Virus record (IMG/VR): IMGVR_UViG_3300032083_002535
Location: 1 to 22,699 of that record
Source of the DNA: a virus
Direction: 5' to 3' (one strand)
Length of the DNA: 22,699 nucleotides
The stretch's first letter is position 1, and each line of letters begins with the position of its first letter. Of the stretch, positions 11,253-21,970 are shown piece after piece. A program made the translations under genes and the position numbers. Below the pieces are notes generated by a model that saw only the letters and a list, made by a program, of their open reading frames with translations, was not told the origin of the DNA and did not search any database.

Positions 11253-11514
11253 CGTATATTATTCTAACAGTTAAATTTTTTGCTGACTTGTTTTTTGTTC
11301 TGTTAATTCTTCTCATCTTGCCTTTGTCCATTCGTTCACTATGTGTTTTCACATCATACAAATCAATGGTTCCAATTTTTGAATCTATTACAACGAGGTC
11401 GCAAGGGCCTTTGCCTCCCAAATCATAATAGACATGATGGTAGGGTCGAGATAAAAACTCTATTGCTGCGAGCAATTCGTTGCGTATACCTTTTTGTTGT
11501 TTGCTTATAGCCAC
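11209..11514 (-). CDS. PD-(D/E)XK nuclease, Holliday-junction-resolvase-like, 101 aa
   Basis: The short protein has the core of the PD-(D/E)XK nuclease fold: Glu13 in the first helix (GIRNELLAAIEF), Asp39 in GPCDLVVI, and D54-V55-K56 in LYDVKTHSE, with strands before and after. This is the arrangement of small archaeal Hjc-type resolvases and VRR-type nucleases, enzymes that cut branched DNA using divalent metal. All putative catalytic residues are present. Its start overlaps the end of the SNF2-type helicase gene by 10 bases, so the two are probably co-translated and may act on the same branched substrates during replication or recombination. It ends tail-to-tail over the small membrane protein gene. 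The exact substrate is unknown. Confidence 0.72.
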   Translation of the reverse strand: MAISKQQKGIRNELLAAIEFLSRPYHHVYYDLGGKGPCDLVVIDSKIGTIDLYDVKTHSERMDKGKMRRINRTKNKSAKNLTVRIIYVKEVFGTPTQYSVE

Positions 11515-12959
11515 TCTTTAAGTTCTTCACCTAATATTTCATTTGCAATATTTATTTTAGAACGTAATGCCTTTACTATTTTTTCATCAACAGTGTTCTC
11601 ACATATTAAATCCACATAATTAACTTTATGTTCTTGCCCTATTCTATGTGCGCGATCTTCTGATTGTAATCTTTTTTCCAAGTCGTAGCTGTTTGAGTAG
11701 TACACTACCGTGTTGGCCGCTGTAAGTGTAATTCCGTACCCTCCGGTTGATGGATTTCCAACGAAATAGCGTGCAGGGCCCTTTTTCTCTTGAAACAGAG
11801 TGATTTGCTTCTGGCGGACCTTTGCATCCACTGCACCGTAATATGCCACTGTAGAGGCTTCTCCGTAAGCTTTTTTTAAAGCAGCGACTATATTTTCTAT
11901 GTCTGCAACGTAAGTCGCCCATATTATGACCTTGCCATCTGTCTCTTCAAGCACAGACATTAGTTCTGACATTCTGTTGTTTTTAAGTTGTTTAATTGTA
12001 CCGTCATCAGCTTTAAACGTGCCACATGTTATTTGATGAAGTCTTAACAGCTGTGTCAACACGCTCATAGTAGAGCAAACTTTACCGTCAAGTTCTGCTA
12101 GTGCAATTGCTTTCATTGAATCATACGTTTTTCTTTGTTCTGGTGTCATTTCAATAATACGTTTTTGATAAACTTTTTCTGGCAAATCTAAACAATCTTC
12201 TTTTAATATTCTGTAAGAAAATTGAGATACAATATCGGATAGTTCTGCCAAGTTACGGTAGCTGTCGTGAGGCCTTACTATATTTACAAAACGTCCATTC
12301 ACATTAATTGTTTGCATGTGAGCGTATCGATTACGAAACGCTACAAAAGAGTCTTGTCCTAGCAATTCAGAATCTAAAAAATCACATTGAGAATACAGAT
12401 CCAATGGGCTTTTGGTAACAGGACTTCCTGTCATAATTCTTTTATATTCAGCGTTCATGCCAACAGATAATATGTTTCTTGTTCTTTGAGCCGTAGGTGT
12501 TTTAATAGATGTGCTTTCATCTACTGCCATCATTGCTTTATATGCCCACAAAAACTTTTCAGCTTCATCACGACCGGGTTTAGTAGAGAACGCTTCTACA
12601 TTTATTACAAAAAATGTAAGGTGAGGGTCTCTTGTTTTTGAGTATAATTGAGACAACATTTCTTTATCGTTTTTGGAACGAGAACTAGGTGCTACCCAAT
12701 AAAACGTTCTGCATTGTATGTGTTTGGGAATATGTTTAGGTATCTCTTGCTCCACCCAGTTTTTGTAAACACCTTTTGGTGCAACAATAACAGCGGCATT
12801 TATTTTTCCGTGATCATACAGCATAGCTATATTATCCAACAATATCTTAGACTTACCCGTACCCATCTCACAGAATAACGCGTAGTTTTTCTTATCCCAA
12901 CTTTTTTTCAAAGCCGTCAATTGATGCTTGTACGGCTTTGTTTTGAACTTGTAATTCAT
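11505..12959 (-). CDS. SNF2-family superfamily 2 DNA helicase/translocase, 484 aa
   Basis: The motifs of SNF2-type ATPases appear in order: YKHQLTAL Q-motif region (residues 10-17), Walker A EMGTGKS (31-37), VIVAPKGVYKNW motif Ia (57-68), DEST Walker B (147-150), MTGSPVTKSP motif III, a second RecA domain with KVIIWATYV motif IV, GGYGITLTAANTVVYY motif V and QSEDRAHRIGQ motif VI (432-442). It couples ATP hydrolysis to movement on double-stranded DNA or to branch remodelling. In phages such enzymes are usually placed in replication or recombination. The length covers only the helicase core, with no accessory domain. The gene runs against the neighbouring operons and is followed by a 10-base-overlapping nuclease gene. 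A sigma70-like promoter lies directly upstream (12986-13013). Confidence 0.88.
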   Translation of the reverse strand: MNYKFKTKPYKHQLTALKKSWDKKNYALFCEMGTGKSKILLDNIAMLYDHGKINAAVIVAPKGVYKNWVEQEIPKHIPKHIQCRTFYWVAPSSRSKNDKEMLSQLYSKTRDPHLTFFVINVEAFSTKPGRDEAEKFLWAYKAMMAVDESTSIKTPTAQRTRNILSVGMNAEYKRIMTGSPVTKSPLDLYSQCDFLDSELLGQDSFVAFRNRYAHMQTINVNGRFVNIVRPHDSYRNLAELSDIVSQFSYRILKEDCLDLPEKVYQKRIIEMTPEQRKTYDSMKAIALAELDGKVCSTMSVLTQLLRLHQITCGTFKADDGTIKQLKNNRMSELMSVLEETDGKVIIWATYVADIENIVAALKKAYGEASTVAYYGAVDAKVRQKQITLFQEKKGPARYFVGNPSTGGYGITLTAANTVVYYSNSYDLEKRLQSEDRAHRIGQEHKVNYVDLICENTVDEKIVKALRSKINIANEILGEELKEWL

Positions 12960-13024: not shown

Positions 13025-13384
13025 ATGACAGTTTACTGTGTGCAAGAACCACCGGGAACATCAAGAGGTACACCAAAAATGGATGTGATGAAAGCATTAC
13101 CTTTTGGAGATGTAAAATTTTTGTTTACAGAAAGAGCACAGTTGGTATATAGTGCCGGTGCACTTATACATGAACTTAGAAAGAAACTTGAAAATTTTAA
13201 TGACGAAGATTATCTACTTCTTGTGGGTGATCCTGCTATCATTGCTGCTACTAGTGCTGTAGTTTCCGATATCAACAACGGTAAATTTAAGATGTTGAAA
13301 TGGGATCGAGAATCTGCTAAGTATTATCCATTGAGTGTAAACTTATATCAGAAAGAAGAGAATAATGGAGAAGATCAATTTTAA
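13025..13384 (+). CDS. Conserved phage protein of unknown function, 119 aa
   Basis: This is the first gene after the divergent promoter gap and so probably among the first transcribed of the replication block. The product looks globular alpha/beta. It contains a strand-helix element LLLVGDPAIIAATSAVVSDI (residues about 64-83) followed by GKFKMLKWDRESAKYYPLSV and a charged Glu/Asn tail. I have seen similar uncharacterised proteins in marine podovirus genomes upstream of replication genes, but no function is known to me. No catalytic motif, metal site or membrane segment is visible. The end overlaps the next gene by 20 bases in another frame. The ribosome binding site is weak (AAGAAAGAA). Confidence 0.75.
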   Translation: MTVYCVQEPPGTSRGTPKMDVMKALPFGDVKFLFTERAQLVYSAGALIHELRKKLENFNDEDYLLLVGDPAIIAATSAVVSDINNGKFKMLKWDRESAKYYPLSVNLYQKEENNGEDQF

Positions 13385-13925
13385 AGAAGATGAAATAGAG
13401 CAAGTCACAAACGACGATGCCGCAACAATCGGTGCACTTTGTCAAGAGTTAGTTGACACAGAAGCAGAGATTGATTCACTAAAAGAATTATTAAAACAAA
13501 AACAAGAGCATGCTCTGGACATCAGACAAGTTAAGATTCCAGAATGGATGCAGGATAAAAATTTATCGCAGTTGAAACTGAATGATGGCAGTTCAATTGA
13601 CATAAAGAATTTTTATGGAATTACGATACCAAAGGACCCCGATCAACGGTCCACGGCGTATCAATGGCTTCGAGACAACAACCTTGGTGACCTTATTAAG
13701 AATGAGATTGCCGCTAGGTTTGGACGTAACGAAGACGGGAAGGCGTTGGAATTTGCCAAGTTAGCCACCGCAAATGGGTATGAGGTTGAGCAAAATTTAA
13801 AAGTTGAACCTATGACTCTAAAAGCAACTCTTCGGGAACTGCACGAAAAAGGTGCGGCTCTACCACCAGAAGAGATATTTAAAACGTTTGTGGGTAGACA
13901 AGCAAAAGTTATAAGGAAAAAATAA
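13365..13925 (+). CDS. Conserved phage protein of unknown function, 186 aa
   Basis: The start ATG 13365 is preceded by GAAGAGAA within the preceding gene, which it overlaps by 20 bases. The N-terminal 65 residues are a helical, probably coiled-coil region (LCQELVDTEAEIDSLKELLK). A compact domain follows, with IPEWMQDKNLSQLKLNDGSS, ITIPKDPDQRSTAYQWLRDN and DLIKNEIAARFGRNEDGKAL. The C-terminal part includes VEPMTLKATLRELHEKGAAL. The pattern matches a family found in many tailed phages next to the gene of the 263-aa protein, with which it may form a complex. An accessory role in DNA replication or single-strand DNA handling is inferred from context only. The next ATG lies 2 bases downstream. Confidence 0.72.
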   Translation: MEKINFKEDEIEQVTNDDAATIGALCQELVDTEAEIDSLKELLKQKQEHALDIRQVKIPEWMQDKNLSQLKLNDGSSIDIKNFYGITIPKDPDQRSTAYQWLRDNNLGDLIKNEIAARFGRNEDGKALEFAKLATANGYEVEQNLKVEPMTLKATLRELHEKGAALPPEEIFKTFVGRQAKVIRKK

Positions 13926-13927
13926 CA

Positions 13928-14719
13928 ATGAACAAAGTAGCAAAAACAAAAAGCAACGGGCAAGCACTCACTGCAGTTAGTCTTGACTCAATCATATCAG
14001 ACGCTGAATCATTATCGGGGCTCGAGAACGTGAACTCCGCAGATGACTTGGCACTGCCTTTCTTAAAAGTATTGAGCCAACTATCGCCGCAGTGCAACAA
14101 AACCAGTAACAATTTTGTGGAAGGTGCCGAACCCGGCATGATCTATAATAGTGTTAGTGGCAAACTCTATGACGGAGAAGAAGGGATCGATATCGTTCCT
14201 TGTTTCTACAAGCGAGAGTATATAGAGTGGGGCGAGAGAGGCACAGGGAGCGGAGCTCCTATTGCAATTCACGACTCTGACTATGACATAAGTCAAGCTC
14301 CGAGAGACGCAGGTTTTCAAAACAGGTTGCCGAATGGTAACATTGTAGAAGAAACTGCAAATCACTTTGTATTGGTCTTAGATGGTGACGGAGGCTTTGA
14401 ACAAGCTTTGATTACTATGAAATCAACACAGAGAAAAGTTTCTCGTAAGTGGAACTCTATGATGCTTCAAGTTAAGATGCAAGGTCCAGACGGAAAGTCT
14501 TTTACACCACCATCATATAGTCATGTGTATAGAATAAAAACTATACCACAGTCCAATTCAAAAGGGACGTGGTTTGGTTGGGAGATCTTTAAGATTGGCC
14601 CGGTTCAATCACAAGGCGTGTACGATGCCGCAAAACATTTCGCACAAGGCGTTAATAAAAACGCTGTGAAAGTGGAGCACTCAGACGAAGCGCAAGTCTC
14701 ACAAAAGAAAGCGTTTTAG
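13928..14719 (+). CDS. Conserved phage replication-region protein, possible ssDNA-binding protein
   Basis: The 263-aa product starts with a basic, flexible N-terminus, then a conserved-looking core: LENVNSADDLALPFLKVLSQ, GAEPGMIYNSVSGKLYDGEE, GIDIVPCFYKREYIEWGERG and NHFVLVLDGDGGFEQALITM. Alternating strands and aromatic/basic residues (KSTQRKVSRKWNSMML) would fit an OB-like or single-strand-DNA-binding protein, and it stands where phages often carry that gene. This is inference: it lacks the acidic C-terminal tail of classical SSBs and ends QKKAF. It is followed at once by a strong terminator, so it closes the first replication transcription unit. Similar proteins in marine phage genomes are usually left hypothetical. 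Confidence 0.72.
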   Translation: MNKVAKTKSNGQALTAVSLDSIISDAESLSGLENVNSADDLALPFLKVLSQLSPQCNKTSNNFVEGAEPGMIYNSVSGKLYDGEEGIDIVPCFYKREYIEWGERGTGSGAPIAIHDSDYDISQAPRDAGFQNRLPNGNIVEETANHFVLVLDGDGGFEQALITMKSTQRKVSRKWNSMMLQVKMQGPDGKSFTPPSYSHVYRIKTIPQSNSKGTWFGWEIFKIGPVQSQGVYDAAKHFAQGVNKNAVKVEHSDEAQVSQKKAF

Positions 14720-14726
14720 TTAGAAC

Positions 14727-14754
14727 AGGGCGGCGATAGCCGCCCTTTCTTTTT
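14727..14754 (+). terminator. Strong intrinsic terminator between the 263-aa gene and the primase
   Basis: Perfect 8-bp stem AGGGCGGC / GCCGCCCT (14727-14734 and 14739-14746) with a GATA loop, followed by TTTCTTTTT. It starts 8 bases after the stop of the preceding gene and ends 9 bases before the probable primase ATG at 14764. It is the most GC-rich short stretch nearby and fits the textbook form of a rho-independent terminator. Confidence 0.88.
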
Positions 14755-14763
14755 GTGGGGTTC

Positions 14764-16452
14764 ATGAAAGATAGATTATTTATTAGACAGGTATTCAAAG
14801 GAAACGAGAACGCTTACGGCACCTACGTTCCATCTGGAGAAGTAGACTCTAGAGGAAAAGCAAAAGGTTCTTGTAAGACCTTGCCTCTGCCAGAGGGAGA
14901 AGTGTTATCTGAAGACGAAACATTGTGGAAGAATCATTTAGATGGTGTTCAAAGTATAGGTGTTATTCCAATTAACAAACAACACGAATGTTTTTGGGGA
15001 TGCATTGATATTGATAGTTACAAAGGATTTGATCACAGGCAACTTCTTGTAAGTATTAAAAGAGCAAAGCTTCCTTTTATTGTTTTTAAATCTAAGAGTG
15101 GTGGGGCTCACGTTTACATATTTTTTAAAAATCCTGTTAAAGCAAAAGCACTGAGAAAGAAATTAGACAAGGCCGCCTCTTTGCTTGGATTTAAAGGCCA
15201 AGAGATATTTCCAAAGCAAAGTGAATTACCGACAGGTTTCTTTGGCAACTACGTCAACACTCCATACTTTAATGCGCATAATCCAGATCGTTATGCGATG
15301 GTGTTGGATGACAACGAGCAAGTAAAACAGTTGTCGTTGCAGGAATTTTTTGCAGTGTACGAGAACACACTTGTTGAATCAATAGATAAATTTGTAATAA
15401 AAACTGACACTGTATTTCCGGATGGTCCTCCTTGTAATAATTGTATAGCTCTTCGTGGTTGCGCTGAAGGTGGTCGTAACATGTATCTTTTTAATGTGGC
15501 TGTAATGTATAAAAAAATGTACGAAGAGAGCGGAGAAGACTGGTTTTCTAAACTTCAAGAAGCAAATCAAAAATACATAACAAATCCTTTATCACCAACA
15601 GAGGTGTCTAGAATATATTCTTCAGTCACGAGTCACACAGAGTCTTCGGTAAACTCTATTACGGAAGAGGGAGAGCACTTAGACGAAGAGAGCACTTCGA
15701 GTTATCACTATTTGTGTAAGCAAGAACCTATGAAAAGTTACTGTAATCGTGAAGAGTGCATACCGAGAAAGTACGGCGTAACACGGACAACGGACGGTGA
15801 TGATAATCAAACAGACATATCTCAAATACATAAAGTATTAGATGACCCTGTTTTTTATTATGTGACGTTTGAGAACGGCGTTGTTATGAAAGCAGAAGTT
15901 GATGACATTTTTGAAGAAAAGAATTGGAGAAAAAAAGTTGGTGTGACTTTAGATTTTAAACCTGCACGAATGGGCGCAGACGATTTTGATACATACATTA
16001 ATCATCACATGAGAGAGCATTTAGACATTATGGAGTTGCCAGAAGGTGTTGGAAGGAACAATAGAATACACAAAGGAGTTGAAGACTGGTTGTCTGGCAC
16101 AGGACGTGGGGACGATGTTGAAGGTTTATTGCAGGGCAGTTCTTTCTACGATGAAAAGAAAAATAAAATATTCTTTAAGTTTGAAGATTTGCGTTCGGCA
16201 TTGGTGTCAACAAAAATTATTAGAGACACACAAAAAGAATCTTCTTTGCTATATGATTTTGTAAAGAAGCCGTACGAAATACAGATTGATGGTAAAACAG
16301 AACGAGTTAAAAACCCGGGTTTGAATGGAGAGCAAACAAAGAAAACTGTAAATAAAAAAACTATTCACGTGTGGGTGGTAGATTCAAGATTGTTTGATCT
16401 TGTAGGGGACAATGTTGAACCAAAAGAAATTATAAAAGAAAGGGCGTTTTAA
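14764..16452 (+). CDS. Archaeo-eukaryotic-type DNA primase (AEP / PrimPol-like), 562 aa
   Basis: The catalytic core of an AEP primase is visible: GCIDIDSYKG with metal-binding Asp82 and Asp84, then SKSGGAHVYIFF with Ser112/His116, then EIFPKQSEL...GNYVNTPYF (residues 147-169), the pattern of the primase of TOTE-type elements. It synthesises primers, and possibly longer chains, at the replication fork. Two cysteine clusters follow (C224, C227, C233 and C318, C327, C332) that could hold zinc or an iron-sulphur centre. Residues about 235-300 look like a PriCT-type helical domain, and 345-562 are an unassigned C-terminal domain. ATG 14764 was chosen over the in-frame GTG 14755 because the GTG lies at the end of the terminator U-tract. 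The stop overlaps the next ATG by one base. Confidence 0.8.
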   Translation: MKDRLFIRQVFKGNENAYGTYVPSGEVDSRGKAKGSCKTLPLPEGEVLSEDETLWKNHLDGVQSIGVIPINKQHECFWGCIDIDSYKGFDHRQLLVSIKRAKLPFIVFKSKSGGAHVYIFFKNPVKAKALRKKLDKAASLLGFKGQEIFPKQSELPTGFFGNYVNTPYFNAHNPDRYAMVLDDNEQVKQLSLQEFFAVYENTLVESIDKFVIKTDTVFPDGPPCNNCIALRGCAEGGRNMYLFNVAVMYKKMYEESGEDWFSKLQEANQKYITNPLSPTEVSRIYSSVTSHTESSVNSITEEGEHLDEESTSSYHYLCKQEPMKSYCNREECIPRKYGVTRTTDGDDNQTDISQIHKVLDDPVFYYVTFENGVVMKAEVDDIFEEKNWRKKVGVTLDFKPARMGADDFDTYINHHMREHLDIMELPEGVGRNNRIHKGVEDWLSGTGRGDDVEGLLQGSSFYDEKKNKIFFKFEDLRSALVSTKIIRDTQKESSLLYDFVKKPYEIQIDGKTERVKNPGLNGEQTKKTVNKKTIHVWVVDSRLFDLVGDNVEPKEIIKERAF

Positions 16453-18065
16453 TGAGGTATCTTGATGAAGCAGAAAAAATACTTGGGCCGGAGTCACATA
16501 AAATATTTGGTCCACCGGGAACAGGAAAAACAAATTATTTAATAACAAAATTAATTGATATTATTGACAACAAAAAAATACATCCAAAAGACATTTGTTA
16601 TATTACATTTACAAACAAAGGTATTGACGAAGTAAGAGAACGTTTAGGAGTTCTTAAAAAGACAGAGGGCTATGAATCCTTCGCTACTATTCACGGTCTA
16701 TGTAATCGATACATAAAGGGTGAGAGTTCAAAGTTAGTTGAGGCATCAGACTTCGAATACTGGGCGAAGTCAGAACGAGGTGACGTAAAAAAAGAGTATG
16801 GAGAAGATCTTGATAATAATTTTATTTTAAATTTATACAATTTACAGAGAGTATCTAACACAACGTTGGAGCAGTCTTTTGTGAAAATTAATGAAAGAAA
16901 CCACAAGTGGAAATATGTTAAATACTATGTAGACAGCTGGCATAAGTATAAAGAAAACAATAAGTTACACGATTTTACAGATCAAATTTTATTTGCTTTG
17001 AAGGTTAATCAGTTTCAAAAATACAAAGCTGTGTTCTTAGATGAAGCTCAAGATTCTTCGTGGTGTCAGTGGCAAGTTATTGACAAACTGTTGGAGAAGA
17101 ATTCTGTTGATTATTTGTACATTGCAGGAGACGACGATCAAGCAATTTTTGATTGGAACGGTGGAGATGTTAATTATTTTTTAAATCAATATTCGAATAC
17201 CTGTGAAAATATTTCTTTAACAAAGTCTCGTCGTTTGTCTCAAGAGCATATTAATTTTGCAAGTTTAATTAGTGATACTATAAATAAAAAACAAGAGAAA
17301 AAATACATCGCGAAAAAAAAGGACAAGGGTTACTTGCAGTACACAGGAAGTTTTATGTCAATACCGGTAGACAATGGTGAGTCTTGGACAATCATGGTCA
17401 CCGGCTCACGGATTATGAACGAGATGAAGAACATAATGATGAGAAGAAGATTGTGGTTCAAACAAACTACGGCCAAAGGCTATGTTCATTATCCTGTGGG
17501 ATCTAAAATACTATCGGCTTTAAAATGTTATTTTAATTTACAAAAAGGTAAGTACGTTTCTAAATCAGATCTTCTTATATACAGAACATTAGTCAAACCA
17601 AAAAATTTTATGCCAAAACAATTAGAAGGTTTAGACAAAGATCAATTGTACAATAGGGAACAACTGGAGGAAATGTTTGACTTTGATTTTTCAATAGATT
17701 GGAAGGAACATTTTGCAAATGTGAACAATCCAGAATGGAAAAAGAAGTTTCGTTATATAAAAGACTGCATTGATAACAACGTTGATATATTTACAAAAAA
17801 GCCTGCGATCAAGATGTCAACGATTCACGGAATGAAAGGCGGCGAAGATGATAACATTGTTCTAGTTGGTAACATGGAACAACCATTTTATAATAAATAT
17901 AAAAGTAATGAGCCGGACGAACGAGATGCTATCACGCGAATGTTTTACGTTGGTAGCACAAGAGCAAAGAAGGCCATGTATGTTTATGTATGTTCTGATT
18001 TGCCATATCGATTTAATTTTGATAGAGTGTTCAAGCAATACAACGAAAGAAAAAAAGTAGCATAA
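16452..18065 (+). CDS. UvrD/PcrA-like superfamily 1 DNA helicase, 537 aa
   Basis: The helicase motifs stand in order: Walker A GPPGTGKT (residues 20-27), Ia ITFTNKGIDEVRERL, Walker B DEAQD (197-201), motif III GDDDQAIFDW (226-235), motif IV region SLTKSRRLSQ, motif V STIHGMKGGEDDNIVLVG (starting near 456) and motif VI YVGSTRAKKAMYV (from 499). This is a 3'-5' translocase of the UvrD/Rep type, shorter than UvrD (about 720 aa), so accessory domains 1B/2B are reduced. It probably unwinds DNA for the adjacent primase and polymerase. Its ATG shares a base with the primase stop and its own stop directly abuts the DUF3310 gene. It may be the fork helicase, as no DnaB-type gene is seen. Confidence 0.88.
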   Translation: MRYLDEAEKILGPESHKIFGPPGTGKTNYLITKLIDIIDNKKIHPKDICYITFTNKGIDEVRERLGVLKKTEGYESFATIHGLCNRYIKGESSKLVEASDFEYWAKSERGDVKKEYGEDLDNNFILNLYNLQRVSNTTLEQSFVKINERNHKWKYVKYYVDSWHKYKENNKLHDFTDQILFALKVNQFQKYKAVFLDEAQDSSWCQWQVIDKLLEKNSVDYLYIAGDDDQAIFDWNGGDVNYFLNQYSNTCENISLTKSRRLSQEHINFASLISDTINKKQEKKYIAKKKDKGYLQYTGSFMSIPVDNGESWTIMVTGSRIMNEMKNIMMRRRLWFKQTTAKGYVHYPVGSKILSALKCYFNLQKGKYVSKSDLLIYRTLVKPKNFMPKQLEGLDKDQLYNREQLEEMFDFDFSIDWKEHFANVNNPEWKKKFRYIKDCIDNNVDIFTKKPAIKMSTIHGMKGGEDDNIVLVGNMEQPFYNKYKSNEPDERDAITRMFYVGSTRAKKAMYVYVCSDLPYRFNFDRVFKQYNERKKVA

Positions 18066-18284
18066 ATGAAAGTTGATAACGTCAACCATCCTCCTCATTA
18101 TAAACAGGGAGACGTAGAGTGCATTGATGCCATTGCATCTTGTTTGGGCGAAGGCTTTAAATTTTATTTGCAAGGAAACGCTATGAAATATTTATGGCGC
18201 TATCAACATAAGGGCAAAGCACAAGAGGATCTAGATAAATCTATTTGGTACATAAATAAATTAAAGAGTACTGTTAATGAATAA
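18066..18284 (+). CDS. DUF3310 domain protein, 72 aa
   Basis: The sequence NHPPHYKQGDVECIDAIAS, with NAMKYLWRYQHKGKAQEDLDK and a final helix, is the DUF3310 pattern. This family is frequent in tailed phages and occurs at the C-terminus of T7 gp1.7, a nucleotide monophosphate kinase. Here the domain stands alone at about the usual single-domain length. A role in nucleotide supply or nucleotide sensing for replication is inferred from T7 and from its position between helicase and polymerase; the isolated domain has no visible kinase P-loop. The start abuts the helicase stop and the end overlaps the polymerase start by 8 bases, indicating coupling. Confidence 0.85.
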   Translation: MKVDNVNHPPHYKQGDVECIDAIASCLGEGFKFYLQGNAMKYLWRYQHKGKAQEDLDKSIWYINKLKSTVNE

Positions 18285-20178
18285 TCAAGTTAAATGGACT
18301 GAGTGGGTTGCTGACGACAATTTTCCTGATCTGTCCAAAGCTCCTTATCTAGCGGTTGACTTAGAGACATGTGATATACACTTGATGACACACGGAGCAG
18401 GTTGGGCTACTGGTAAAGGATACATAACTGGATTTGCACTAGCCACAGCAGATTGGGAAGGGTACTACCCAATAGCTCATGAAGAAGGTAACTACGAAAA
18501 AGATAAAGTTATTTCTTGGATAAAGAAAACTTTATCCTATCCCATGCCTAAAATATTTCACAACGCGTCCTACGATGTGGGTTGGTTACGAAACGCAGGC
18601 ATAACCGTCAATGGTACAATACATGACACAATGATTTCAAGTGCTTTGATTGATGAAAATCGTTTTTCTTTTACTTTGAACAGTTTAGCTAAAGATAAAT
18701 TGGGACAAACAAAGAACGAAGATGTTCTTGTGGAGTTTGCAAAGTCAAAAGGGATTGATCCCAAAGCTGAGATGTACAAGGTTCCGGCAATGTATGTAGG
18801 CAAGTATGCAGAAATGGACGCACGATTGACGTATGACTTATACTTTCACAATCAAAAAGAAATAGAGGATCAAGATCTTCATAAAATTTATGATTTAGAA
18901 TGCAGACTACAACCTTGTTTGATTGACATGAGAGCTCACGGTGTTCGTGTAGATCTTGACGGAGCCGCGATTGCAAAAGCAGAATTGTTAAGTCAAGAAA
19001 AACAAGCGTTGTTTGAAATAAAAAAATTATCGAATGTAGACGTTGATATCTGGGCTGCAGCTTCTGTTGCAAAAGCATTTGATAATATGAACGTGAAGTA
19101 TGAAACAACGCCAACAGGAAAACCTTCGTTTACAAAAAACTTTTTAAATACCAACGGATCTCCTTTAGCAAAATTAATTGTTAAGGCACGAGAAACAAAC
19201 AAGGCACACACAACATTTATTGACAGTATATTGAAGCACCAGCACAAAGGACGCATTCATTCTGAGATACATCAGATGAGGAGTGACAACGGCGGAACTG
19301 TGACTGGACGTTTTAGTTATAGCAAACCTAATCTGCAACAGATTCCTGCACGAAACGAAGATATTAAAAACAAAATACGTTCTTTGTTTATACCAGAAGA
19401 GGGGACACAATGGGGGAGCTTTGACTATTCACAGCAAGAACCACGATTGGTGGTGCATTTTGCAGAGAAAGTTAATGAAGTAGAAGGGTATACGCACAAC
19501 TCAAAACGGCCAACGATGGCCACCAAAGAATTTATTAAAGGGTATCGCAAGGGAGATGCTGACTTCCACACTATGGTCGCTAAGATGGCGGGCATTGATC
19601 GTAAGATTGCAAAAACAATTAATTTAGGATTATTTTATGGTATGGGTAAAGCCAAACTTACAGAGGAACTAGGCATTGATCAAGAGACTGCTGAACAATT
19701 GATCGATGAATACAATCAAAAAGTTCCTTTTGTGAAACAACTATCTCAATATGCCATGAACGCAATGGATGAGAATGGTTTTGTGACCACGATAGGTGGT
19801 AGGCGTTGTCGTTCTTTTGGCTATGTTTCAAAGCAATGGAATGCAAAAGGATTTTTTAAAACAGAGAAAGAAGCAGAGGCAGAGTGGGGCAAGTACAATT
19901 ATAAAAAAGCCTACACCTACAAAGCATTAAACAAATTAATTCAAGGGTCTGCGGCAGATCAAACCAAACAAGCAATGGTGGACTTGTATGAACAAGATGG
20001 TATCATACCACATATACAAGTTCATGATGAACTTAACATCTCAATTGAGAGTGAGGAGCAAGCAAAAATGATTGCACAAAAAATGGAAGACTGTATGCCG
20101 GGAGACGCGCCTTTGCATGTACCCAGTAAGGTTGAATACATTCTAGCCAAGAACTGGGGAGACGCAAAAGGTGACTGA
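18277..20178 (+). CDS. Family A DNA polymerase with 3'-5' exonuclease, Leu at position 762
   Basis: The 633-aa enzyme has an N-terminal proofreading domain: Exo I VDLETCD (Asp28, Glu30), Exo II HNASYD (Asp100) and Exo III YAEMD (Tyr177, Asp181). The polymerase domain follows: GTVTGRFSYSKPNLQQIP, motif A FDYSQQEPR (Asp383), motif B RKIAKTINLGLFYGM (Lys446, Tyr454) and motif C QVHDEL (His583, Asp584). There is no 5' nuclease domain. Aligning motif B with E. coli Pol I places Leu450 at Phe762, the residue controlling dideoxynucleotide discrimination. All catalytic residues are present, so it should be active as the replicative polymerase. The start overlaps the DUF3310 gene by 8 bases, and the end overlaps the GTG start of the zinc-ribbon gene. 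Confidence 0.93.
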   Translation: MNNQVKWTEWVADDNFPDLSKAPYLAVDLETCDIHLMTHGAGWATGKGYITGFALATADWEGYYPIAHEEGNYEKDKVISWIKKTLSYPMPKIFHNASYDVGWLRNAGITVNGTIHDTMISSALIDENRFSFTLNSLAKDKLGQTKNEDVLVEFAKSKGIDPKAEMYKVPAMYVGKYAEMDARLTYDLYFHNQKEIEDQDLHKIYDLECRLQPCLIDMRAHGVRVDLDGAAIAKAELLSQEKQALFEIKKLSNVDVDIWAAASVAKAFDNMNVKYETTPTGKPSFTKNFLNTNGSPLAKLIVKARETNKAHTTFIDSILKHQHKGRIHSEIHQMRSDNGGTVTGRFSYSKPNLQQIPARNEDIKNKIRSLFIPEEGTQWGSFDYSQQEPRLVVHFAEKVNEVEGYTHNSKRPTMATKEFIKGYRKGDADFHTMVAKMAGIDRKIAKTINLGLFYGMGKAKLTEELGIDQETAEQLIDEYNQKVPFVKQLSQYAMNAMDENGFVTTIGGRRCRSFGYVSKQWNAKGFFKTEKEAEAEWGKYNYKKAYTYKALNKLIQGSAADQTKQAMVDLYEQDGIIPHIQVHDELNISIESEEQAKMIAQKMEDCMPGDAPLHVPSKVEYILAKNWGDAKGD

Positions 20179-21108: not shown

Positions 21109-21291
21109 ATGCCCGACATTCTTAAGTACAGTTCTGTCTCTGTGAATAAAAAGACATACAAAGAACTAAAGGCAGTATCTGCCGCGTTATCAACTGAGTT
21201 AGGAATGAAAGTATCTTTGGCTAAGACCATTGAGCACCTAGCAACACAGAAAGCAAAGCAACTAGGATTGAATGGCCATTCAAAATCTTGA
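21109..21291 (+). CDS. Probable ribbon-helix-helix DNA-binding protein, 60 aa
   Basis: ATG 21109 is preceded by AAAGGAAC. The short protein has a beta strand (residues about 5-12, LKYSSVSV), a helix (about 13-30, NKKTYKELKAVSAALS), a turn with a glycine, and a second helix (about 36-53, SLAKTIEHLATQKAKQLG). This is the layout of ribbon-helix-helix repressors such as Arc and MetJ, which bind DNA as dimers through the paired strands. Identification is by secondary-structure pattern. If right, it could bind the palindrome 230 bp upstream and control the divergent genes. Its end overlaps the exonuclease gene by 20 bases in another frame. Confidence 0.6.
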   Translation: MPDILKYSSVSVNKKTYKELKAVSAALSTELGMKVSLAKTIEHLATQKAKQLGLNGHSKS

Positions 21292-21970
21292 GTCATTAAT
21301 CACCGAGCGTTATGACTACAAGGATGTTCGACGTAAGAAGGTGAACGGAAAACGATATTACGAAGGGGAGAACAAACTTCTTCCTTCGGTCACAACGGTT
21401 ATATCTGCAACAAAAGATGAGAAAGATAAGGCGGGTCTTCAACGATGGAGAGACAAAGTTGGCGACGCAGAAGCAGATGCAGTTATGCATCAAGCGGCTT
21501 CTGTTGGTACCGCTATGCACAAATTTCTCGAGTGTCATATAAAAGGTGTTGGTTATGACGATAAAAGTAATATTGGTATTATAGCCAAGAGAATGGCGCA
21601 AACAATTATTAAGAATGCTTTACCATCAATGGACGAATACTGGGGCACAGAAGTTCCTCTTTACTACCCCACGTTCTATGGTGGCACAGCAGACTGTGTA
21701 GGAGTTTGGCGTGAACAGCCCGCAGTTATTGATTTTAAGCAGACAAACAAGCCAAAGAAAGAAGAGTGGATTGATGATTACTTTACACAGTTGGCGGCGT
21801 ACTGCATGGCGCACGATGCACTGTATGGTACAGAGATGAAAGCCGGTGTGGTTCTTATGGCGTCGCGTGGTATGGATCTACAAATGTTCACGATCAACGG
21901 CCAACGGTTAGATGATTACAAATACAAATGGCTAAAGCGATGCGAAAAATATTATAATTTAGGAGAGTAA
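21272..21970 (+). CDS. RecB/MGME1-like PD-(D/E)XK exonuclease, 232 aa
   Basis: The motifs of the RecB/Cas4 nuclease family are complete: GTAMHKFLE (His83), WGTEVPLYYP (Glu127), GGTADCVGVW (Asp141), AVIDFKQTNKPK (Asp154, Lys156) and FTQLAAYCMAH with the QxxxY signature (Gln173, Tyr177). Phage members act as single-strand-dependent or 5'-3' exonucleases in recombination and primer removal. It may supply the 5' nuclease activity that the polymerase lacks, as T7 gp6 does. ATG 21272 has AGGA about 5 bases upstream and overlaps the preceding gene by 20 bases. No cysteine iron-sulphur cluster of Cas4 type is seen. Confidence 0.87.
   Translation: MAIQNLESLITERYDYKDVRRKKVNGKRYYEGENKLLPSVTTVISATKDEKDKAGLQRWRDKVGDAEADAVMHQAASVGTAMHKFLECHIKGVGYDDKSNIGIIAKRMAQTIIKNALPSMDEYWGTEVPLYYPTFYGGTADCVGVWREQPAVIDFKQTNKPKKEEWIDDYFTQLAAYCMAHDALYGTEMKAGVVLMASRGMDLQMFTINGQRLDDYKYKWLKRCEKYYNLGE

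Follow-up and report, generated by a model that had tools for sequence, protein, structure and literature searches.

HTVC023P-type phages are abundant pelagiphages whose primase has served for the phylogeny of the group (PMC9599517). The primases of HTVC023P (gp03), HTVC027P (gp04), DSL-LC04 and 023Pt_psg01 are homologous to the protein studied here over most of its length, with 25-32% identity, and share with it the operon order, four cysteines and the C-terminal domain. CAPP of Marinitoga (PDB 7nqd, 7nqe, 7nqf and 7p9j) shares the fold of the archaeo-eukaryotic primases (AEPs), the D, D, E triad and the EIFPKQ sequence; its E260 has been named as an active-site residue (PMC10345425), and it also has a PriCT-like C-terminal domain with conserved cysteines (PMC8211822). 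PriCT-1/2 have been proposed to be homologous to the Fe-S domain of PriL (PMC5862659). The layout of AEP domain, PriCT domain and C-terminal winged helix is also that of the PrimPol-PV1 primases (PMC5862659, Kazlauskas 2018), from which our protein differs in having no fused helicase or ATPase and probably in its AEP subfamily.

Here we analyse an entire viral contig of 22,699 bases (the window), a 22.7-kb fragment that encodes a member of this group of proteins. By profile, motifs and predicted fold, the window protein is a genuine archaeo-eukaryotic primase, of the type used by a very common ocean phage group, and it bears on how DNA synthesis starts without the TOPRIM/DnaB pair of T7. Its build is unexpectedly modular, and we seem to have no earlier account of the cysteine-bearing middle, of the winged-helix tail or of the exchange of catalytic halves among related viruses.

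The primase gene and its genomic setting

The primase frame is open from the ATG at 14764 to the TAA at 16450-16452 (Table 1). An in-frame GTG at 14755 is a possible alternative start, and relatives favour the ATG. In two contigs (L114 and L154), of which one is viral and one comes from a SAR11 single cell, the primase frame is split into pieces by either a frameshift or a sequencing error. A search against AEP families confirmed the assignment made in the original prediction: the Pfam AEP-TOTE profile (PF22548) matched with E=3.7e-18 and 66.4 bits (cut-off 27), and the phrog_21866 'primase' profile matched residues 8-540 with E=5.7e-73. The latter is a catalogued phage 'primase' family, to which the window primase belongs by sequence; more than 590 relatives were found in one viral scan.

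Table 1. Features of the window at and around the primase gene (window coordinates; residue numbers of the primase)
Feature	Position	Strand	Evidence or remark
SNF2/HepA-like SF2 helicase	11505..12959	-	Pfam E=2.3e-21; phrog_62 E=5.5e-117
Pam3 gp32-, gp33- and gp34-like genes, directly upstream of primase	13025..14719	+	Pfam E=1.7e-31, 6.3e-26, 1.4e-68
Intrinsic terminator-like hairpin, gap between gp34-like gene and primase	14727..14755	+	AGGGCGGC GATA GCCGCCCT and T-run; covariation
AEP primase gene	14764..16452	+	562 aa; ORF reading, Pfam, PHROG
AEP catalytic domain	14764..15408	+	residues 1-215; PF22548; VIA-align to CAPP 7nqe
Motif I, D82-I83-D84	15007..15015	+	invariant, 137 relatives
Motif II, SGGAH, residues 112-116	15097..15111	+	S112 and H116 invariant, 137 relatives
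Motif III, E147-IFPKQ, residues 147-152	15202..15219	+	E147 invariant, 137 relatives; matches CAPP E260
PriCT-1 helical domain and Cys-rich unit	15409..15798	+	residues 216-345; PriCT_1 profile
C224, within the PPC motif; first conserved Cys	15433..15435	+	133/137
C318, C327, C332 (YxCK..P...C....C)	15715..15759	+	132-133/137
Beta unit (predicted)	15799..16035	+	residues 346-424; AF2 pLDDT mostly >83; VIA Z
Winged-helix-like domain (predicted)	16036..16413	+	residues 425-550; VIA Z to TcpK, FOXM1
UvrD/Rep-like SF1 helicase	16452..18065	+	Pfam UvrD-helicase E=5.8e-34
DUF3310	18066..18284	+	Pfam
Family A DNA polymerase with 3'-5' exonuclease	18277..20178	+	Pfam E=2.1e-61, 3.2e-13
PD-(D/E)XK exonuclease	21272..21970	+	phrog_298 E=5.2e-51

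The start of the UvrD-like helicase gene overlaps the primase stop in a TAATG (16450-16454), which suggests translational coupling of the two. The order of SNF2-like helicase (on the opposite strand), homologues of Pam3 gp32, gp33 and gp34, primase, UvrD and PolA is repeated in DSL-LC04 and largely kept in HTVC023P and 023Pt_psg01. In neighbour counts drawn from about 115 other loci and restricted to those with enough flank, a gp34-like gene lies upstream of the primase in 57/66, gp33 in 57/66 and SNF2 in 55/66, and downstream UvrD is found in 50/56 and PolA in 48/56. This gene order, together with relatives of ~60 kb, fits HTVC023P-like phages and rules out a T7-type podovirus. The proposal that an AEP had replaced the usual primase of a T7-type phage was therefore mistaken: the module is HTVC023P-like, and in these podoviruses (~60 kb) the AEP is the ordinary primase, annotated as such before.

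As the window is only a fragment, absences within it mean little. A contig of 62,121 bases (G001; L015, L023-L026) has the same genes as the window and, for most of the window's length, a nucleotide identity to it of 88-96%. Neither TOPRIM (PF13155) nor DnaB_C (PF03796) was found in G001 or in eleven further relatives with complete or long records, with HTVC023P, HTVC027P, DSL-LC04 and 023Pt_psg01 among the complete ones; the controls were detected. The predicted lack of a TOPRIM primase and of a DnaB helicase is thus supported in this set. The larger ORFs scanned in G001, all but four of the tail region, matched structural, packaging, metabolic or unknown families and include no primase and no helicase; this contig has no terminal repeats and may be incomplete. 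The AEP-TOTE profile has exactly one match in each of 13 records. In the distant record ct52p938, DnaB matched below threshold a gene whose annotation reads DnaB-like helicase, and the AEP of this record is different and shorter. Further genes of G001 (L024:427-1062, L024:13479-14219) include one for a phage ferredoxin, matching phrog_3704 with E=2.6e-94, and one for a 2OG-Fe(II) oxygenase.

Catalytic domain and active site

The motifs on which the primase call had been based, DID (residues 82-84), SGGAH (112-116), FPKQ and GNYVNTPYF (161-169), are present in the protein far beyond chance, and the protein has all the AEP superfamily motifs (hhhDhD/E, sxH, hD/E). D82, D84, S112, H116 and E147 do not vary across 137 homologues, which rules out an inactive remnant. 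The D-to-E spacing in the profile-aligned CAPP chain is 81, i.e. that from D179 to E260 (260-179), and this equal spacing identifies E147 as motif III and as the counterpart of CAPP E260.

An AlphaFold2 model built from 64 sequences reached a pLDDT of 89.6 and bears out an AEP-type fold. Its residues 1-211 align with CAPP (7nqe) with a VIA-align Z of 19.7 and an rmsd of 2.5 over 184 residues, followed by the LigD polymerase domain and Prim-PolC at Z about 10; CAPP was also the sole significant PDB family in a profile search (E=2.2e-13). To judge from sequence and model, the two-metal active site formed by D82, D84 and E147 is intact, with H116 as the putative nucleotide-binding residue.

A conserved set of four cysteines

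The PriCT_1 profile matches the window primase weakly (E=0.0006) and is found in 40/64 homologues, with a best value of 3.8e-9. Within this region, C224, C318, C327 and C332 are all present in 132/137 homologues; the exceptions are four rhizobial-type proteins without any of them and one poorly aligned protein from an archaeal bin. C227 and C233 are almost confined to the window's clade, which differs from the HTVC023P-type primases by these two extra cysteines and by an insert of ~24 residues between C224 and C318. Since C227 and C233 are unconserved, the arrangement is 1+3 instead of 3+3, and two Cys3 metal sites are ruled out; what had been read as two Cys3 clusters is a set of four conserved cysteines plus two lineage-specific ones. 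That the four are gained or lost together suggests one metal site.

Most of the phage proteins (92 of 132) have these cysteines, from first to fourth, spaced at 70-9-5; in the window primase the insert makes this 94-9-5. Thirty archaeal PriL proteins have mostly 72-9-6/7, with the PPC motif at the start as in the phage primases. Among 1,725 ORFs, the PPC-plus-spacing pattern was found only in these phage primases (or pieces of them) and in PriL, in a test devised after the pattern had been noticed. The C-terminal domain of the CAPP proteins at L186 and L187 also has conserved cysteines; the spacing in two CAPPs is 68/69-16-2, unlike that of the window primase family. The near-PriL spacing of the phage primases is suggestive, and on sequence grounds a PriL-like cysteine unit in the window primase is plausible.

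A stronger reading takes the PriCT unit with its four Cys for a PriL-type [4Fe-4S] domain that has been retained, which would make the phage enzyme a one-chain counterpart of PriS-PriL. The AEP core is shared with archaeal and eukaryotic PriS-PriL, from which the window primase differs in being one chain instead of two. Besides the exclusive pattern and the PPC start, this reading agrees with the published kinship between PriCT-1/2 and the Fe-S domain of PriL and with the cysteine-bearing C-terminal domains of CAPPs, and a local hhalign score of 19.45 was matched by 0/99 column shuffles. Profile support is nevertheless weak: the hhalign probability is 5.8% with E=0.0065, the signal drops to chance once the cysteines are masked, and the global score is beaten in 1/60 shuffles, or in 2/60 with the cysteine columns fixed. 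Local alignment of the whole cysteine unit to PriL covered the PPC motif alone (E 0.044) and was gone after masking; an implausible score over 5 columns in a single shuffled control is an artefact. The spacing test is post hoc, and Zn suits four cysteines equally. PriL does not appear in the VIA-align fold listing, nor PriL-CTD or the pRN1 PriCT in the fold comparison of the C-terminal model, which does not exclude them, and a PDB profile search with the cysteine/C-terminal part gave nothing significant. Taken together, we regard a retained PriL-type cluster as possible, with the balance leaning slightly to the other side. If the four cysteines do hold such a cluster, the Fe-S question of the eukaryotic primase would have in these enzymes a small, one-chain model.

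C-terminal domains and a probable swap of the catalytic half

The C-terminus of some 200 residues, left unassigned in the original prediction, can be assigned from fold comparison of the model as a beta unit and a winged-helix-like domain. Residues 346-562 are confidently folded in the AlphaFold2 prediction. The comparison gave, for residues 425-550, Z values of 7.4-7.6 with the TcpK wHTH bound to oriT (5vfx) and 5.0-5.2 with the FOXM1 winged helix and, for residues 346-424, 6.4 and 5.5 with the N-terminal part of SaPI Rep (8tch) and SCCmec Cch (5dgk), all in a range where a shared arrangement alone could suffice.

In other marine viral contigs (at least 80; L236, L237, L239, L244, L249, L260, L288, L298, L299, L343-L421), the primase slot is filled by a different protein with a homologous C-terminal part. 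This part is homologous to residues 346-562 of the window primase in 80/80 by HMM (hhalign E=3.2e-10), and the AEP and PriCT/Cys profiles of the window primase match 0/80 of the alternative primases. The gp34-like gene lies directly upstream in 53/53 with enough flank, and PolA downstream in 72/79. The motifs found in their N-terminal half are DxD, SHY and EIR...VPxS, and Prim-Pol (PF09250) matches weakly, in 3/14 members with a best value of 1.3e-4; by sequence this half is probably another AEP type, Prim-Pol-like. A PDB profile search with the alternative primases gave nothing significant. A tblastn search with one member had no match in 50,697 phage records, so that the chimeric form is apparently unseen in those annotated records.

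We tentatively propose, as rather less likely than not, that a conserved C-terminal chassis of beta unit and winged helix, between the gp34-like and UvrD genes, takes either a CAPP-like AEP joined to a four-Cys Fe-S unit resembling that of PriL or an unrelated Prim-Pol-type AEP. If this were true, primase catalytic cores would be exchanged beneath a fixed adaptor, and phages would carry a one-chain PriS-PriL analogue. The swap is a natural experiment on the role of the C-terminal domain.

Proposed role in replication

The window protein very probably serves an HTVC023P-like podovirus as its replicative primase, acting as proposed here from sequence, model and analogy. On single-stranded DNA of the phage, the AEP domain would synthesise a short primer. 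The PriCT/Cys domain would contain one metal site, Fe-S or Zn, and may help to hold the initiating nucleotide, as in PriL/Pri2 and the C-terminal domain of CAPP (PMC10345425). The winged helix may dock on duplex DNA or on partners, unwinding would be done by the UvrD-like and/or SNF2-like helicase instead of a DnaB-type ring, or by recruited host DnaB, and PolA would extend the primers. Every reaction step is drawn by analogy with CAPP and the eukaryotic/archaeal primase. A T7 gp4-type primase-helicase would share the role of phage replicative primase, but its fold is unrelated, and the TOPRIM and DnaB domains are absent from the window primase.

The adjoining UvrD-like helicase and the exonuclease downstream could also suit a repair or fork-restart prim-pol, engaged in repriming or gap filling as some AEPs are (PMC10345425). 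Such a function is unlikely for the sole primase found in these phages, which sits in a core replication operon with PolA. As AEPs can polymerise, the enzyme might even copy the whole genome without a separate polymerase, for which the PrimPol of phage NrS-1, as cited in PMC10149686 and PMC8065100, is a precedent; the complete proofreading family A polymerase encoded in the same operon and in most relatives makes this highly improbable. Co-option of a TOTE-type conflict primase or of a CAPP for defence or counter-defence might be read from the passing of the AEP-TOTE cut-off (66 versus 27 bits) and from weak matches to PADLOC PrimPol models. True TOTE proteins, however, score far higher with PF22548, at 255-353 bits when the match is complete, and combine a motif III of the D..FPNQ type (D.FFPNQ or D.LFPNQ) with a fused SF2 helicase, absent from the 562-aa window primase, and with no PriCT seen; the comparison set was 296 genomes of the phylum of a Flavobacteriaceae bin, long helicase-fused ORFs included.

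In a 57-row tree, arbitrarily rooted and with a long CAPP branch, TOTE forms one clade (100/98) joined to CAPP (98/93), and this well supported split separates both from the phage family. The separate clade, the missing fused helicase and the far lower PF22548 score rule out TOTE membership, so that of the suggested kinship with TOTE primases the common Pfam family of the AEP domains stands, and by sequence the link is only distant. In contrast to CAPP, the window primase has no TPR or RT fusion and no Cas1/Cas2, and has an extra winged helix; only its AEP part matches the NCBIfam CAPP model PrimPol_Msp, at 32.3 bits against a cut-off of 200. A scan of ten proteins encoded around the primase in the window showed no Cas gene, and neither Cas1/Cas2 nor TOTE partners were found within the window. 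A co-opted TOTE or CAPP enzyme is scarcely credible on this evidence, and we retain the reading as a replicative primase.

Hairpins upstream of the primase gene

The stem of the strong terminator-like hairpin in front of the primase gene covaries in close relatives (L006, L007, L011, L012 and L016). In 101 non-redundant relatives, folding of the 70 nt just before the primase gene is better than that of shuffled sequences, with a median z of -2.1 compared with -0.3 inside the gene. A second conserved hairpin, GGGCGNN-GAAGCGAGAGTGGA-NNCGCCC, has a GAGA tetraloop and a covarying outer stem, and is found in L066, L083, L089, L096, L098, L125, L126 and more than 100 other viral contigs. It follows a gp34-like gene in 68/73 and lies mostly (63/79) 5-17 nt ahead of a primase. 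An Rfam search with the upstream hairpins gave no match; the GAGA hairpin is possibly a regulatory or mRNA-stabilising element. At two loci in which no window-type replication genes were detected (L229 and L246), the GAGA hairpin precedes a basic protein of 91 aa.
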